NCBI GenBank assembly: GCA_958295905.1
Contig: OY282382.1
Span: 2,194,001-2,258,000 of the forward strand
Length of the DNA stretch: 64,000 nt
Direction: 5' to 3'
From: an uncultured Vicinamibacterales bacterium
Lineage (GTDB): Bacteria > Acidobacteriota > Vicinamibacteria > Vicinamibacterales > UBA8438
The notes under the pieces were generated by a model. That model was given only the letters and a program-made list of their open reading frames with translations, did no database searches and had not been told where the DNA came from. Position 1 is the stretch's first letter. Each line of letters starts with the position of its first letter. Of this stretch, positions 4,276 through 59,331 are shown one piece after another. The translations under genes were made by a program, and so were the position numbers.

Positions 4276-4721
4276 CGTCTCGTCCCCCGTTGGTCGCCGT
4301 TCGGAAACCGCGTCCCGCGCTGGGGCCCCGTCCGGGCTTGTCCTGACTTGTAGCACGTCCGCGATTTCGATGCCAGCGGCGCCGGTGGGCCGGCCAGGGG
4401 CATCCCACGCTGCCCGCGCGTGACGGCCCGCCCCCGATTCGAGGGGTCGCCACCGTCTTGCCGGCCGGCCGGCGCCGCGTGAGACCCACGATGCCGCCCG
4501 TCCAGAGCCCCAAAACCCGCCACGATGCTGCCTGCGCACGGCGGTGGCGGAGCGTGGGATGGTCCTGGTGGGCCGGCGGCGCGGTCCGAGCCACTCATTC
4601 TCCGCCGCGGGCGCCGCCGAATGGACCCTCCCGGGGGCAAGGGCCGAGCCGGAGATGGATGACCGGCATCGCCGTCATGCGATAGATTGAAGTGTACTGA
4701 ATGCCGTGGAGGGGAGGCTCA
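4276..4721. other. Intergenic region with a complete 175-bp repeat element
   Basis: No gene is seen. The central part is the family A repeat described separately. The remaining 150 bases before the Hsp70-type island are less GC-rich. A purine-rich GGAGGGGAGG at 4708-4717 is an excellent Shine-Dalgarno for the GTG at 4722, which decides that start over the ATG at 4701. Confidence 0.6.
4394..4568 (-). mobile_element. 175-bp MITE-like repeat, family A copy 1
   Basis: The ends are imperfect inverted repeats: CCAGGGGCATCCCACGCT on the left and the complement of CCAGGACCATCCCACGCT on the right. An 8-base direct repeat, TGGGCCGG, sits immediately outside both ends (4386-4393 and 4569-4576), as expected for a target-site duplication. 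Three other copies of exactly the same length occur at 21024, 55587 and 58905. It encodes no transposase, so it would be mobilised in trans. Confidence 0.85.
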
Positions 4722-6200
4722 GTGGTCACATCTTCAGAATTGCTGTCCCGGTTCGCCGACGCCGGGGATACGTCGGCCCGGCGCGCGGCCCTCATCGATC
4801 TCATCAAGGCCAAGCAACTTCACAAGGTCGTGGGCACCGATTCTCTGCGGCGCGGGCTCGAGCGGCTTGCCGGTTCGGCGCGGGACGATGGTGAAGAGAT
4901 GGACCGTCTGCTCGCGGTGGCCACGTTGCAGCGTGCCGCCGCCTCGGCGCCGCCCATCAGGGAGGTCGTCAGGGCGCTGATGAGAGACGCCGTCACCCGA
5001 CCGCTGTCGGATCTGCACGAACTGCCTGACGTCGAGGATCGCCTGTACGCGGCAAAGTCGTGGCGTGTCGTGCCTTCCGCCTGGAGTCTCGACGTGCTCG
5101 CAACGGCCGCGGCGCTCGAGGAATCGGGTGAAGCCGCACGGAGAGAGTGTATCGAGGGTCTCGTCGAACTCGCCGGCGATGTCTCGGAGGCGATTTCGGC
5201 TCTGAGGAAGGCTCTCTTGGCCGTGAGGTTCGACACGAAGAAGCCCGGCAACAGTCTGGGACGTCGGTTGACTCGTGTGCTCGGTGCGTTGACGGCGGTG
5301 CTGGCAGGCACTGATGGGCCGGTCGGTGAGAACGCGGGACGGGCGATGAGCGAACTCCTGGATCGAGGATTTCGCGTTGTCGGGACGCCGGAATCGGCAG
5401 CGGTGCGGTTAGCGGTGGTGGAACACGTGGCCGTGCTGACGCATGCGATCGTCCGGGTCGATTTCTCACACGCGGACAGGGACAAGACGTACGAGGCGTT
5501 GTCCGTCGTGCGGGAGTGGTTTGCCGCGCATGAGTGGCAAGAGATCTGCGAGTCGTCGAAGGCGATCTCGCGCGTCAGCCAGGACGTGCAAAAGTCGCTC
5601 CTGTCCCTGGCGCGGCGCGGCGTGACCGACAACCGTCTCCGGCACGCGCTGGCGACCGCGGCGGGCTCGCGTGGGAAGGCGGACACGATCTGCAGGAGGA
5701 TGGCGATCGCGCATCCCGGGATCCCCGATGACGTCCGGGATTGGCTGGCCGGCGTGTCGAAGCGCACATCGATAGCCAGCGCGGTCGAGAGCCAGGAGCG
5801 CTCCATCGATGAAGTGCTCGCCGAACTGCACATCGCGATGACGCGGCTCACGCGGGCCGCGGACCGGGTGCGGTCGGACGTGTTGCCGGAGGTCTCCATC
5901 GTGCTGCCGCAGCAGGAGCGGGCGTTGTCGCGGTTGGCCGGGCTGGTGGAGGCCATGGCCAACAAGCTGAGTCTGGCCGTGAAATGGCGGTCCTTGCGTC
6001 TACGCGGGACAGCGGGTGAGGAAGTCGAGTACTCACCGGTGGAACACCGGCTCGACGCCGGCGTACGCAGCCGGCACGTGCGCCTGCTGACCCCCGTGGT
6101 GGAGCGCGTCAGCGAGGACGGCGTGCCGCGGATCGTGCTGAGGGCGGCCGTCGAGCCGGTCGGCAATCGGCCGGCGCCGGCGGTTGGGGCGTCGGCCTGA
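4722..6200 (+). CDS. Helical protein with GrpE-like C-terminal domain (partner of the Hsp70-like gene)
   Basis: A 492-residue protein, starting at the GTG preceded by GGAGGGGAGG. About residues 1-360 are alpha-helical with no family I recognise, perhaps a HEAT/ARM-like solenoid. A likely coiled coil follows (about 365-430, around IDEVLAELHIAMTRLTRAAD). The last 70 residues resemble the beta-wing head of GrpE nucleotide exchange factors: GEEVEYSPVEHRLDA, then a PV segment and IVLRAAVEPV, compared with GrpE V-x-x-DP-x-x-H and IRAAMV. The next gene, 74 bases on, is Hsp70-like, which supports a nucleotide-exchange role. The GrpE assignment is by motif only. Codon use is less GC-rich than flanking genes, suggesting acquisition. 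Confidence 0.6.
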   Translation: MVTSSELLSRFADAGDTSARRAALIDLIKAKQLHKVVGTDSLRRGLERLAGSARDDGEEMDRLLAVATLQRAAASAPPIREVVRALMRDAVTRPLSDLHELPDVEDRLYAAKSWRVVPSAWSLDVLATAAALEESGEAARRECIEGLVELAGDVSEAISALRKALLAVRFDTKKPGNSLGRRLTRVLGALTAVLAGTDGPVGENAGRAMSELLDRGFRVVGTPESAAVRLAVVEHVAVLTHAIVRVDFSHADRDKTYEALSVVREWFAAHEWQEICESSKAISRVSQDVQKSLLSLARRGVTDNRLRHALATAAGSRGKADTICRRMAIAHPGIPDDVRDWLAGVSKRTSIASAVESQERSIDEVLAELHIAMTRLTRAADRVRSDVLPEVSIVLPQQERALSRLAGLVEAMANKLSLAVKWRSLRLRGTAGEEVEYSPVEHRLDAGVRSRHVRLLTPVVERVSEDGVPRIVLRAAVEPVGNRPAPAVGASA

Positions 6201-6274
6201 TGGCCTTGGATGGTGTCCAGACCAACCAGGGGAGTCGTCCATAGTCCGGCATCGCTCTATATCTCGAGGAACTG

Positions 6275-8035
6275 ATGACCGACGCGTCGCCGACCGACCG
6301 CCTGACACGAGATGCAGCGCTGCTGTTGCTGAAGAACCTGCTCGCCCGACTTGATGCCGACGCCGCAGTTGACCGGCCGCAGTTCCGTGGCGTGGTGTCC
6401 GATGCCGAACGCGGGGCGTTGCGGGTGCTGCTCGGCGACGTCGGGGCCTCTCCGCCCAGCCCGCCGACCCCGCCGGTTGGGCCGGAGCCGCCCGAGCCGG
6501 CGGAACCGCCGGAAGAGGACGCTGCGAAAACGCCGTCGTCGCCCGTCGAATTGAACCTCGACGCCCTGCGTCCCGACGTCTCACCGCCGCCGGAGTGGGT
6601 GCTCTGCCTCGATTTCGGTACCGCGAAGTCGAAGGCGTTCGCCGCCACCGACGACGACGAGGATCCGGAGCTCGAACCGTTGCCGATAGGCGAAGACGAC
6701 GAGGATCTCGACGGATCCGTGTACGAGGTCAGTTCGTGTGTCTGGATCGACGATGACGGTCGGCTGTTCGTGGGGTCAGAAGCGGTCAAACGAGGAATGA
6801 ACTACGGCGGCGAGTCTCGCCGGCCCCTTGATTCGCTCAAGCAGGAAATCAGTCAGGTGGATGAGAACGACGGCTTGGCGGAGCTGGCCCGAAAACTCCC
6901 CGATGACGTGGATCCGACCTCCACGCTGACCTATGCCGACGCCATCACCATCTACTTGGCGTACCTCACGGATTTGGCGACGACGGCGGTCGCACGGCGC
7001 GTCAAGACGCTGTACGTGCGCCGCCGATTCACCGTGCCGTGTTGGAAACCGACGCAGCGCCGCTGGGCAGCCGAGCTGCTGGGGAGGAGTCTGCTGCGCG
7101 CGCAGTTGCTGGCGGATACCTTTCGCGACCGTTGGCGGGAGGGCATTCCCGTCGAACAGGTCGCGTGCGCGGTGCGGGCTGCGGCTGCGCACGACGACAA
7201 GTTGACGCGGCTGGCGGCGACCGAGCCGGACGATGAGACCCACTGGTCCCGCGGCAGCCTCGAAGCGCTGGCGGCGGCTTCCGCGCGGGTCTGGAGAGAT
7301 AGTTCTGAGCGGGACCTCATGCTCGTGGTTGATGTCGGTGCCGGGACGACCGACTTGTCGTTGTTCTGGGTCGTGCATCATGCAGGATTTCATCGCGCGT
7401 TTCCAATCGAGAACGGGGACTCGGGAATCCGGCAGGCGGGAGATACGCTCGACCGATTGCTGGTCGAAGCGCTGCTGCGGAAGGCAGGTCTCGGCGTTGA
7501 CGAGACCGGAGCGCGCGCGCGCCGCGGCCTGCGTCGCAAGGGGGTGCGTCAGATGAAAGAGAGGCTGTTCGCGGTGGGCAGCCTCACGGAGACCCTGGTG
7601 AACGACGCGGAGGTCACTCTGAGCCGGAAGGAGTTCATCGAATCGAAGGGCGTCAGGAATTTCGAGGAGCTGATTGCCGGCACGATCCAGCGGCTTCTGG
7701 ATGGTGTCCACGAGAGCTGGGGAAAGGCGGCGGCCGAGAAGGGCGTTACGCTGGTCCTGACCGGCGGGGGCTGTGACCTTCCGATGATCACGGCTCTCAA
7801 GGACCGGCCGTGGCGGCTCCGCGGGCGCGAGATCCCCTTTCGAGTAGCGCAGCGCGTGCCGAGGCGCTTGGAGGACCAGTTCGATGCGCCGTTCATCCAG
7901 GTGTATCCCAGACTGGCGGTGGCCATGGGCGGAGCCCTGAACACGCGGCTCGACGAGAGGACGGCATTGCGCGATTGGCTGGGCGGCGAGCGCCCACCGG
8001 GGGGGTTGGAGAGTTCCGCGACGAAGGGCGTTTGA
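6275..8035 (+). CDS. Hsp70-like ATPase lacking a substrate-binding domain
   Basis: A 586-residue actin-fold ATPase. The N-terminal 100 residues are a helical piece plus a Pro/Glu-rich linker. The phosphate-1 loop [14 protein letters not shown] is at about residues 109-122, phosphate-2 [16 protein letters not shown] at about 350-365, and the adenosine motif [12 protein letters not shown] near 493. The protein ends about 90 residues later, so the beta-sandwich peptide-binding domain and lid of DnaK are missing. GAGGAACTG before the ATG at 6275 serves as ribosome-binding site. It forms an operon with the GrpE-like gene upstream. Its family position is clear; its client and process are unknown, with a regulatory or defence role plausible. 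Confidence 0.8.
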
Positions 8036-8040
8036 CTCGC

Positions 8041-8291
8041 CGCGGTTGAGTCTGCCCGAAGCCCTCCGGGCGGGCGGGACGGCGACCCTTGGCTCGTAGC
8101 GCCTGGAGCTTCAGCACCGCCTCGGCGCCAAACCAAAGGCGCCGGCGGGCGCCGGTCAACTCCATCCGGTCGCGGACCAGGTACCGGCACGCCCCTTCGA
8201 TGCCCCCGGTGGCGATGGGATACCCGCCGCGAGGTAGCGGTCGTCGTGCAGATACGGCGCGTATTTCAGCAGTGTAGTGGAAGAGCCGCAC
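8041..8291 (-). pseudogene. ISKra4-type transposase remnant
   Basis: The minus-strand translation contains [20 protein letters not shown] followed by [20 protein letters not shown] and ALRAKG. This is the conserved C-terminal block of ISKra4-family transposases (the catalytic Glu lies in IEGACR). There is no upstream DDE part, and the frame loses similarity after ALRAKG, so this is a fossil. It sits directly downstream of the Hsp70-like gene and marks the island's right side. Confidence 0.75.
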
Positions 8292-21014: not shown

Positions 21015-21023
21015 GTCGCCGGA

Positions 21024-21198
21024 CCAGGACCCTCCCACGTTCCGCCACCGCCGTGCGCAGGCGGAATCGTGGCGGGTCCTGGGGTTCTGGACTGGAGGCA
21101 TCGTGGGTCTCACGCGGCGGCGGCCGGTCGGCAAGACGGTGGCGACCCCGCGAATCGGGGGCGGGCCGTCACGCGCAGTCAGCGTGGGATGCCCCTGG
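21024..21198 (+). mobile_element. 175-bp MITE-like repeat, family A copy 2
   Basis: The ends are CCAGGACCCTCCCACGTT and AGCGTGGGATGCCCCTGG. The 8 bases TCGCCGGA occur on both sides (21016-21023 and 21199-21206), a clear target-site duplication. It begins 9 bases after the STAS stop codon. Confidence 0.88.
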
Positions 21199-55263: not shown

Positions 55264-55870
55264 GTGCGTTCCTCCAGCTCCGAATCGGCTCCGCGATACT
55301 CCGCCGGAGCCGCAACCTTACCATACGCGGGCGGATGGCGGCACGGCGATCTCTAGGAGTCTGCGCCGCAGAAAATCGATGCGACAGTAGACGAGCCGAC
55401 GACGAGAGGGAGCTTGATGTCGACCACGTTTCGCCCCTACGTGCCCGAGCAGTCGCTGTTGTTGCCGCCCGATGTCGGCGATCGGGAGGCGGCCGGGCGG
55501 GAACGATCTCGGGCTTCCGGGGGCGCCGTTCCGGTGGTCGCCTGCCGCGGCCGGCGCTGCCCGCCGAGGGACCCGCGGTAGAACCTCCAGGACCATCCCA
55601 CGCTCCGCCACCGCCGTGCGCAGGCAGAATCGTGGCGGGTCCCGGGGCTCTGGACATGCGGAATCGTGGGTCTCACGCGGCGCCGGCCGGTCGGCAAGAC
55701 GGTGGCGGCCCCTCGAATCGGGGGCGGGCCGTCACGCGCAGTCAGCGTGGGATGCTCTTGGTAGAACCCCGGGTGTCGCACGGCGTCGGCGGGAGCGTGG
55801 CTGCCCTGACCGATCCGCTCGACGGGGTCGCGGCAGACCCCCCGGGTGTCGCACGGCGCCGGCGGGGTCG
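55264..55870. other. Gap of 600 bases with a family A element
   Basis: No gene is seen. Apart from the repeat at 55587, the phrase GGGTGTCGCACGGCG with its following GGCGGG occurs twice, about 70 bases apart, near 55790 and 55855. Confidence 0.5.
55587..55761 (+). mobile_element. 175-bp MITE-like repeat, family A copy 3
   Basis: The ends are CCAGGACCATCCCACGCT and AGCGTGGGATGCTCTTGG. Flanks TAGAACCT (55579-55586) and TAGAACCC (55762-55769) match at 7 of 8 positions, an ageing target-site duplication. Confidence 0.85.
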
Positions 55871-58434: not shown

Positions 58435-59331
58435 CCGGGCGCGGGCCGCGCGCGCGATCCGCCGGGCGCGCGGCGGGAAGCCGGCCGGCGCTCACCGCCG
58501 TCGCCGCCGCGGTGGTGGGACGGGTTTCCGCCGTCGCCGATCAGCCCGCGCTCACGGACGCGCTTGCCGCCGTCGCCGGCAACGCGCGCGGCGGTGCGGC
58601 CTCGGCGGAGGGCGGTTCGTCTCCGGCGTCACCATGATCGCGATCGCGGCGGCCCGGCAGCCCGTGGCGAAACGGCGGCCCGGCCACAGCGCGCAGCCGC
58701 GGTTCGTCGGCGGGGAGCAACCGCGCGGCGCGGTCGAGGGCGGTGTCGCCGCGCTTGCGCGGCCCCGCAAACCGTCGCGCCGCGCCGGCCGACGCCGCGG
58801 GAGGGCCGCGCGGCGGGGCGCAGACTCCGGGTTGCGCCCGCCCGGACGGTGGGCGCCCCGAAAATTCCGGAGAGCGCGGAACCAGCACGACCCGAACCGT
58901 TGCGGCAGGGGCATCCCACGCTGACTGCGCGTGACGGCCCGCCCCCGATTCGAGGGGTCGCCACCGTCTTGCCGACCGGCCGTCGCCGCGTGAGACCCAC
59001 GATTCCGCACGTCCGGAGCCCCATGACCCGCCACGATTCCGCCTGCGCACGGCGGTGGCGAAGCGTGGGATGGTCCTGCCGTTGCGGCACTTGCAATAGC
59101 CGCCGGCGTTCACTACGATTCGCGCGTCGGCGTCGCGGCAGCGGCTTGGTTGCGCCGTCGAGTGCCGCCGTCCGCGTTGCGGCGCCCCGCGCCCGCGCGG
59201 CCGTGGAACCGCGCGGGCGACGTCGGCGCCGGGCCGTCGTTCGGTCGAATACCGTGGAACCGGTTGCCGCGGGCGCCAGCCCGTACATCGACTGACGCGC
59301 ATCGAGTGATGCCGCTCGGGGAGAAGCTTCA
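58435..59331. other. 900-base gene-free gap
   Basis: Contains a family A element (58905-59079). The rest is GC-rich with open frames on all sides but no similarity I recognise, and no sign of a start with a good ribosome-binding site. Confidence 0.5.
58905..59079 (-). mobile_element. 175-bp MITE-like repeat, family A copy 4
   Basis: The ends are GCAGGGGCATCCCACGCT and AGCGTGGGATGGTCCTGC. CCGTTGCGG occurs at both borders (58897-58905 and 59079-59087), giving an 8-9-base duplication. Orientation is the same as copy 1. Confidence 0.85.

Follow-up and report, generated by a model that had tools for sequence, protein, structure and literature searches.

A predicted Hsp70-type ATPase without a substrate-binding domain and its helical partner: a copy of the candidate anti-phage system PDC-M61 in a Vicinamibacterales genome

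Introduction

Hsp70-like domains have been described in a defence setting in the type III CoCoNuT restriction systems, where the proteins CnuD and CnuCD join such a domain to HEAT-like repeats; CnuD is composed of a nucleotide-binding domain (NBD) and a substrate-binding domain (SBD), has degenerate ATP motifs and is partnered by McrBC homologues (PMC11090510). In the phage growth limitation (Pgl) system, i.e., bacteriophage exclusion (BREX) type 2, function depends on the kinase PglW and the ATPase PglY, and PglW is thought to transduce a signal of infection (PMC4365076). The database PADLOC-DB 2.0.0 holds further candidate anti-phage systems, one of which is PDC-M61; its PDC entries are candidates obtained by “guilt-by-embedding” and are mostly unvalidated (PMC12988326). 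Here, we describe a pair of genes, A and B, at positions 4722-8035 of a 64,000-nucleotide stretch (referred to as the window; G000:C1:2194001-2258000) of G000, the 6.3-Mb, three-contig genome of an uncultured Vicinamibacterales bacterium. As judged by profile comparison, this pair is a member of PDC-M61.

We read the window pair as a stand-alone copy of PDC-M61, in which we infer that a HEAT-protein sensor and an Hsp70-like ATP switch would function together in phage defence, and to this reading we assign a probability of about 50%. It draws on the predicted anatomy of the two proteins, on their fixed pairing and on a relative of the pair, in the genome G277 outside the genus, with which a BREX type 2 operon begins.

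Results

The gene pair and its family

An earlier note, made from the window sequence alone, had described two adjacent co-directional genes here, and open reading frames at 4722-6200 and 6275-8035 bear this out. The intergenic gap is 74 bp, and the spacing is identical in G001, one of the two congeners of the window genome (the other is G002). Gene A starts with a GTG at 4722; the earliest in-frame start is an ATG at 4701, and the G001 reading frame opens at the position equivalent to 4722. Both proteins match the PADLOC profiles near full length, A matching PDC-M61A with an E-value of 4e-54 (residues 7-479, profile positions 12-488 of 489) and B matching PDC-M61B with 3.5e-110 (residues 14-565, profile positions 5-567 of 588). 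Adjacency, strand and order are as in PDC-M61 in the window and in three other genomes. No text naming PDC-M61 was found in a literature search poor in subscription journals and, as far as our searches show, PDC-M61 has so far been a catalogue entry only. The parts of the pair are as follows.

4722..6200, + strand: gene A (PDC-M61A), helical protein, 492 amino acids; open reading frame, PADLOC PDC-M61A, ratio of nonsynonymous to synonymous substitution rates (dN/dS)
4722..5756, + strand: A residues 1-345, predicted HEAT/ARM-like alpha repeat region; AlphaFold2, VIA-align, congener identity
5757..6002, + strand: A residues 346-427, long paired helices, likely a coiled coil; AlphaFold2, congener identity
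6003..6197, + strand: A residues 428-492, small C-terminal head, earlier claimed to be GrpE-like; low-confidence beta strands, no GrpE sequence similarity
6275..8035, + strand: gene B (PDC-M61B), predicted Hsp70-like ATPase without an SBD, 586 amino acids; open reading frame, PADLOC PDC-M61B
6275..6439, + strand: B residues 1-55, conserved helical N-terminal extension; identity to G277, helices in a low-confidence model
6440..6589, + strand: B residues 56-105, proline-rich variable linker; sequence, identity of residues 56-92 to G277
6590..7972, + strand: B residues 106-566, Hsp70-type NBD; hhalign, PDB profile, Foldseek

Protein B

With Pfam, nothing above the cut-off was found in B (HSP70 lies below it at E 0.056), while the NCBIfam models gave weak DnaK and HscA matches over residues 333-508 (best E 9.2e-5). 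A profile made from three B sequences matched DnaK and BiP structures in the PDB, with a best E-value of 2.5e-6 (19 distinct sequences at E ≤ 0.001 and 25 at E ≤ 1), and global alignment with hhalign of B from residue 101 to DnaK residues 1-390 gave E 1.2e-7. Taken alone, the N-terminal half aligned only weakly (P 0.012 local and 0.46 global in hhalign). The aligned pairs of B and DnaK residues include D113/D8, K189/K70, E330/E171, D353/D194, T358/T199 and D360/D201, and all six B residues are invariant across the three full B sequences. In DnaK we take D8 to belong to the phosphate-1 loop, K70 to be the catalytic lysine, and D194, T199 and D201 to belong to the phosphate-2 loop.

The alignment to DnaK 1-390 stops near residue 566 of 586, leaving about 20 residues of B after the NBD, and B therefore has no SBD. 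Thus, the Hsp70 ATP-binding motifs and the missing peptide-binding part of the earlier note both hold; from sequence comparison, B has an Hsp70-type NBD in which the ATPase residues are retained, and it lacks an SBD. At its N-terminus, residues 1-55 are 48% identical to the G277 protein (22/46) and the linker that follows is 18.9% identical (7/37, residues 56-92).

A structure model of B, built from three sequences, has a predicted local distance difference test score (pLDDT) of 43, and residues 1-55 are helical in it. A Foldseek search with this low-confidence model gave 111 matches at E ≤ 0.001, and all 50 among the matches listed are Hsp70 NBDs; with VIA the best match had Z 10.0 at a root-mean-square deviation (rmsd) of 4.4 over 163 aligned residues. 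Because the model is poor, these fold matches are treated as supporting evidence.

Protein A

The AlphaFold2 model of A (mean pLDDT 74.7) has helices in succession over residues 1-345, followed by two long helices (349-394 and 396-426, partly of low confidence) and a small, beta-containing head of low confidence. The best match in VIA-align had Z 10.4 (rmsd 7.5, 276 aligned residues), i.e., below the Z of about 13 that the tool deems safe for helical repeats; HEAT/ARM proteins such as Kap95p are among the top rows, and the matches cover almost only residues 1-345. Foldseek found no match to the model at E ≤ 0.001, and Pfam nothing above its cut-off. HEAT/ARM proteins are thus the best structural neighbours of residues 1-345, which we describe as a predicted HEAT/ARM-like solenoid at a match level under the tool's safe one, and residues 346-427 are likely to form a coiled coil.

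The earlier note had seen a long helical region, a coiled coil and a GrpE-like head in A; the model agrees with the first two, and the third found no counterpart in sequence comparison. Pfam detected no GrpE in the C-terminal 132-145 residues of the four A proteins (the sole match, at E 0.09, is unrelated), and the A profile had no match among PDB sequences at E ≤ 10. Comparison by hhalign of A with 11 GrpE stretches from the phylum and with E. coli GrpE gave P 0.09-0.31, which is not significant, and the head alone gave P 0.07-0.08 against GrpE; the same procedure, as a positive control, recovered DnaK for B at 4.6e-6. In a scan with a head-only GrpE profile the four A heads ranked 38, 43, 87 and 114 of 177 scored stretches, and the leaders were four stretches at 36-39 bits, taken as true GrpE genes within the loci read. 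Gene A is not among the GrpE matches found in its own genome, and no GrpE chain is among the matches listed for the A model, where those from VIA cover almost only residues 1-345. A GrpE identity of the head was accordingly rejected at the level of sequence. A resemblance of residues 437-442 to the GrpE motif FDPxxH, noticed by eye and in one insignificant hhalign path, was not counted.

GrpE itself is laid out as a long helix, a helical hairpin and a beta domain. The order of elements in the A model, i.e., long helix, second helix and small beta head, is compatible with this layout, the head being of low pLDDT. The genome of G000 already has DnaK and two GrpE genes. As a separate observation, the second of these GrpE genes is divergent and adjoins an Hsp70 gene (an 820-amino acid open frame; G000:C1:130363-132581), away from the main DnaK.

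Distribution of the pair

Full-length B was found in two of 396 genomes of the phylum (G000 and G277) and in one of 399 genomes in the class of G277. The PDC-M61B profile matched 97 phylum genomes, of which 95 gave short, weak matches to part of the profile (best E 8e-8) that were taken for DnaK/MreB-like proteins and dropped. Among 60 relatives, B is present in the window genome and its two congeners at 74-100% identity; five more relatives had 27-32% matches over the DnaK-like part only, which were also dropped. Among 193 genomes from the class of the window, gene A was found in three, each a member of the window's own genus, and among 282 phylum genomes it was found in two, again G000 and G277. 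Within the family of G277, two of 250 genomes matched A, and the match in G766 (62 residues, E 7.9e-4) was not counted. A search of genome contigs returned the two congeners only; the contigs that match G001 and G002 carry the label Vicinamibacteria, which makes the host an acidobacterium. No match to B was found in plasmids and phages with tblastn at 1e-5, nor to the G277 B in plasmids, and the A and B alignments matched no viral contigs.

Each of the four genomes with a true homologue of either gene, i.e., G000, G001, G002 and G277, contains the two side by side in unchanged order, so that the co-occurrence on which the earlier note had staked the pairing is found in four of four genomes, with B cut short in G002. 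The two genes thus occur together, and they do so rarely and patchily.

A related pair that opens a BREX type 2 operon

The G277 pair is 40% (B) and 27-28% (A) identical to that of the window. In G277 the two genes open a same-strand run of A, B, PglW (1426 amino acids), PglX (1175), PglY/BrxC (1253), PglZ (866), BrxD (440) and BrxHI (697), in which the start of B overlaps the stop of A. Each of the BREX genes was named by PADLOC, and NCBIfam BREX-2 models also match PglZ (above the curated cut-off) and PglY (below it). On the far side, at L051:15288-16615, are a 344-amino acid protein, divergent from the run and with weak matches to PADLOC PDC-M38A and PD-Lambda-5_A, and a 98-amino acid HNH nuclease upstream of A and B, so that genes of a defence type border the pair on either side.

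PglW was found in seven of the 396 phylum genomes. If both 396-genome samples are identical, the chance that at least one of the two PDC-M61 genomes falls among the seven PglW genomes is about 3.5%; co-occurrence alone is therefore weak, and it is the position in the operon that carries the argument. Because A and B lead straight into a complete BREX type 2 set, the idea of a defence function gains independent support from G277.

Two other PglW loci are described in their own right. In G043 (L088:2191-5948), open reading frames of 770 and 482 amino acids, which by eye look Hsp90-like and calcineurin-like, respectively, lie upstream of PglW, possibly a second chaperone-like attachment to Pgl. 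In the congener G002 (L076:2495-6030), there is a PglW-like gene that lacks the N-terminal nuclease part and whose end lies in a different frame; no other pgl genes were recognised by eye near it.

The window neighbourhood

The pair adjoins an amidase gene at a matching position in G000, G001 and G002. By Pfam, the neighbours include patatin, amidase, MaoC dehydratase, PHA-synthase subunit-like and hydrolase proteins, and two of the eight neighbour proteins scanned match PADLOC, only through generic domains (patatin and helix-turn-helix). Orthologues of PglW and PglX were not found in G000, where a search for these two BREX proteins gave only kinase- and methyltransferase-domain matches (best E 1.1e-10 and 1.1e-11, respectively) and no PglW family match at 1e-60. 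Two elements outside the system lie next to it.

4391..4567, no strand assigned: 175-bp dispersed repeat, later insertion; copies in window and genome, stretch absent in G001
8085..8231, - strand: C-terminal remnant of an ISKra4 transposase, later insertion; NCBIfam NF033572, surrounding stretch absent in G001

Both had been pointed out before. The repeat of about 175 bp has copies at 4391-4567, 21023-21198, 55584-55755 and 58903-59078 of the window, with 92-93% mutual identity; the genome as a whole holds 44 near-full-length copies, several of them in close tandem pairs, and one further match of 23 bp. The ISKra4 remnant, between B and the amidase gene, matches positions 373-420 of 422 of NF033572 (E 7.9e-9). 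In G001 the pair is found at the equivalent place with neither the repeat stretch nor the ISKra4 stretch, and because both are absent at these matching places they most simply postdate the pair. Mobility by means of the flanking elements, as the earlier note had suggested, is thereby rejected.

A lower G+C content than the surroundings was confirmed, with 67.7% for A and 66.6% for B vs 70.9% for the window, and the values at third codon positions are 80-82% for A and B vs 92-94% in two neighbour genes. Since this third-position content is low and the distribution patchy, an older horizontal acquisition of the pair is plausible, which is what can be retained of the proposed mobility.

Selection and conservation

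Between congeners, dN/dS is 0.22-0.25 for A, 0.36 for the full-length B pair and 0.25-0.30 for the first 203-215 residues of B compared with G002. From these values, A and B are under purifying selection and therefore maintained proteins. Among the three regions of A the head has the lowest dN/dS (0.16). Compared with G001, the solenoid is 77.7% identical (268/345), the coiled coil 87.8% (72/82) and the head 89.7%, as expected for a variable sensor with a fixed interface. The corresponding identities to G277 are 28.4%, 19.8% (16/81) and 32.1%.

Discussion

In the mechanism that we propose, B would be an ATP switch in which a flexible linker ties the NBD to the conserved helices, which would serve for docking, and A would be its dedicated partner. 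The long HEAT/ARM-like solenoid of A may bind an infection cue, for which a protein of the phage, a nucleic acid and a host complex that has stalled are candidates, while the coiled coil would join the solenoid to the small head, and the head would touch B. Once bound, the cue would shift the nucleotide state of B, through loading, hydrolysis or exchange, and B in its new state would act on a further target. In G277 this target could be the Pgl machinery, where the PglW kinase is a plausible recipient of the signal. This recipient would not serve the window pair, which, in a genome without PglW and PglX, must act alone or on host machinery. A sharper version, in which the ATP cycle of an Hsp70-type domain without an SBD is under the direct control of the HEAT sensor, so that the two proteins form an immune switch that uses this cycle as an infection timer and not for folding, either alone or as a front end of BREX type 2, is put forward tentatively and with considerable doubt.

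A role in phage defence had been named as a possibility in the earlier note, and the PADLOC assignment to PDC-M61, together with the relative that heads a BREX type 2 operon, supports it as such. Several observations weigh against our reading. Scans with the A and B profiles gave no match in the flanks read at the other six PglW loci (about 6.6-9 kb upstream), and since the pair is thus carried by one of the seven PglW loci in the phylum sample, the link to BREX comes from a single locus. In the window the neighbours are metabolic, with no defence island among the eight proteins scanned. In G002, B is cut after about 217 codons near a contig end (L054:1-150), where the junction sequence resembles by eye that beside the window's ISKra4 remnant, and the remainder of B was not found elsewhere in this genome; with B cut at such an insertion sequence-like end and the rest not found, the system looks dispensable. 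The dN/dS values of the pair, which come from three congeners only, are ordinary, as two neighbour genes have 0.23 and 0.21. Moreover, at the distance of G277, conservation within A is lowest in the coiled coil, contrary to the idea of a conserved interface.

Among the alternatives, the one that survives best casts A and B not as a system in their own right but as an accessory of BREX type 2, which helps PglW or PglX to assemble or conveys an infection signal to them, the window copy being a remnant or repurposed. It would fit the place of A and B as the first two genes of the same-strand run into pglW, and also the need of Pgl for a signalling kinase and an ATPase (PMC4365076). We nevertheless consider it unlikely, given that six of the seven phylum PglW loci have neither A nor B in the flank read, that the three genomes of the window's genus have the pair beside an amidase gene and not pgl genes, and that in G000, where no orthologue of PglW or PglX was found, A and B are nevertheless intact and under constraint.

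Less probable again is a specialised chaperone or stress module without an anti-phage role, in which B would be an Hsp70 cousin and A an exchange factor and client binder for a host protein. The NBD of B is of the Hsp70 type, the element order of A recalls that of GrpE, and the chromosomal place of the pair is stable in the genus, with metabolic genes alongside. However, B has no SBD and A no GrpE sequence similarity, the genome already holds DnaK and two GrpE genes, the distribution is very rare and patchy, unlike that of housekeeping chaperones, and a relative is tied to a defence operon. Least probable of all is that B is an actin-like, filament-forming ATPase from the MreB/MamK/BeeR side of the superfamily and A a filament-binding adaptor, since the weak profile matches of B to BeeR, MreB and MamK (E 0.0035 to 0.055; MreB chains in the PDB, E 0.025) are surpassed by those to DnaK, HscA and BiP in the same searches, and the 50 Foldseek matches among those listed for the model of pLDDT 43 are Hsp70 NBDs.

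The analysis gives PDC-M61 an anatomy, i.e., a predicted Hsp70-type NBD with ATP residues and without an SBD, plus a HEAT-like partner. It also adds a locus where a complete BREX type 2 operon begins with the two PDC-M61 genes, and the finding that, in another genus, the pair has been kept without BREX, as judged by PglW and PglX. Whether the pair defends alone, and whether it signals to the Pgl kinase, are now testable questions. If the sharper version of our reading is true, an Hsp70 nucleotide clock would serve as a timer in infection signalling instead of in protein folding.

Comparison with known systems

With PDC-M61 the window pair shares near-full-length profile matches, adjacency and gene order, and its copy has no defence neighbours among the eight proteins scanned, save for the generic patatin and helix-turn-helix matches. 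DnaK/Hsp70 with GrpE is similar in the NBD and ATP residues of B and in that the ATPase is encoded with a coiled-coil partner. The differences are that B has an N-terminal extension and lacks an SBD, and that A has a predicted HEAT-like solenoid of 345 residues and no detectable similarity to GrpE in sequence. The YegD-like family NF008673 (PRK11678), which we take to be YegD and to be without an SBD, is also an Hsp70-type ATPase with a weak match to B (E 0.0028) and is shorter, its profile having 450 positions; we know of no HEAT partner gene for YegD.

The likeness to BREX type 2 is that the G277 relative is immediately followed by a complete type 2 set; A and B themselves do not belong to the BREX core, and the window genome has no PglW or PglX orthologue. 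The words “chaperone”, “DnaK” and “ASKHA” do not occur in the main text of a 2026 survey of BREX diversity (PMC12839542), and the main text of a preprint on YprA helicases has no Hsp70, DnaK or GrpE. No McrBC-type genes are among the eight neighbour proteins scanned beside the pair. The nearest published parallel seen for Hsp70 or GrpE in the defence or BREX literature is CnuD of CoCoNuT. CnuD or CnuCD (PMC11090510) resembles the window pair in that an Hsp70-like domain and HEAT-like helical repeats come together in a defence system, and it differs in that the window has two proteins, with the ATP residues kept and no SBD.

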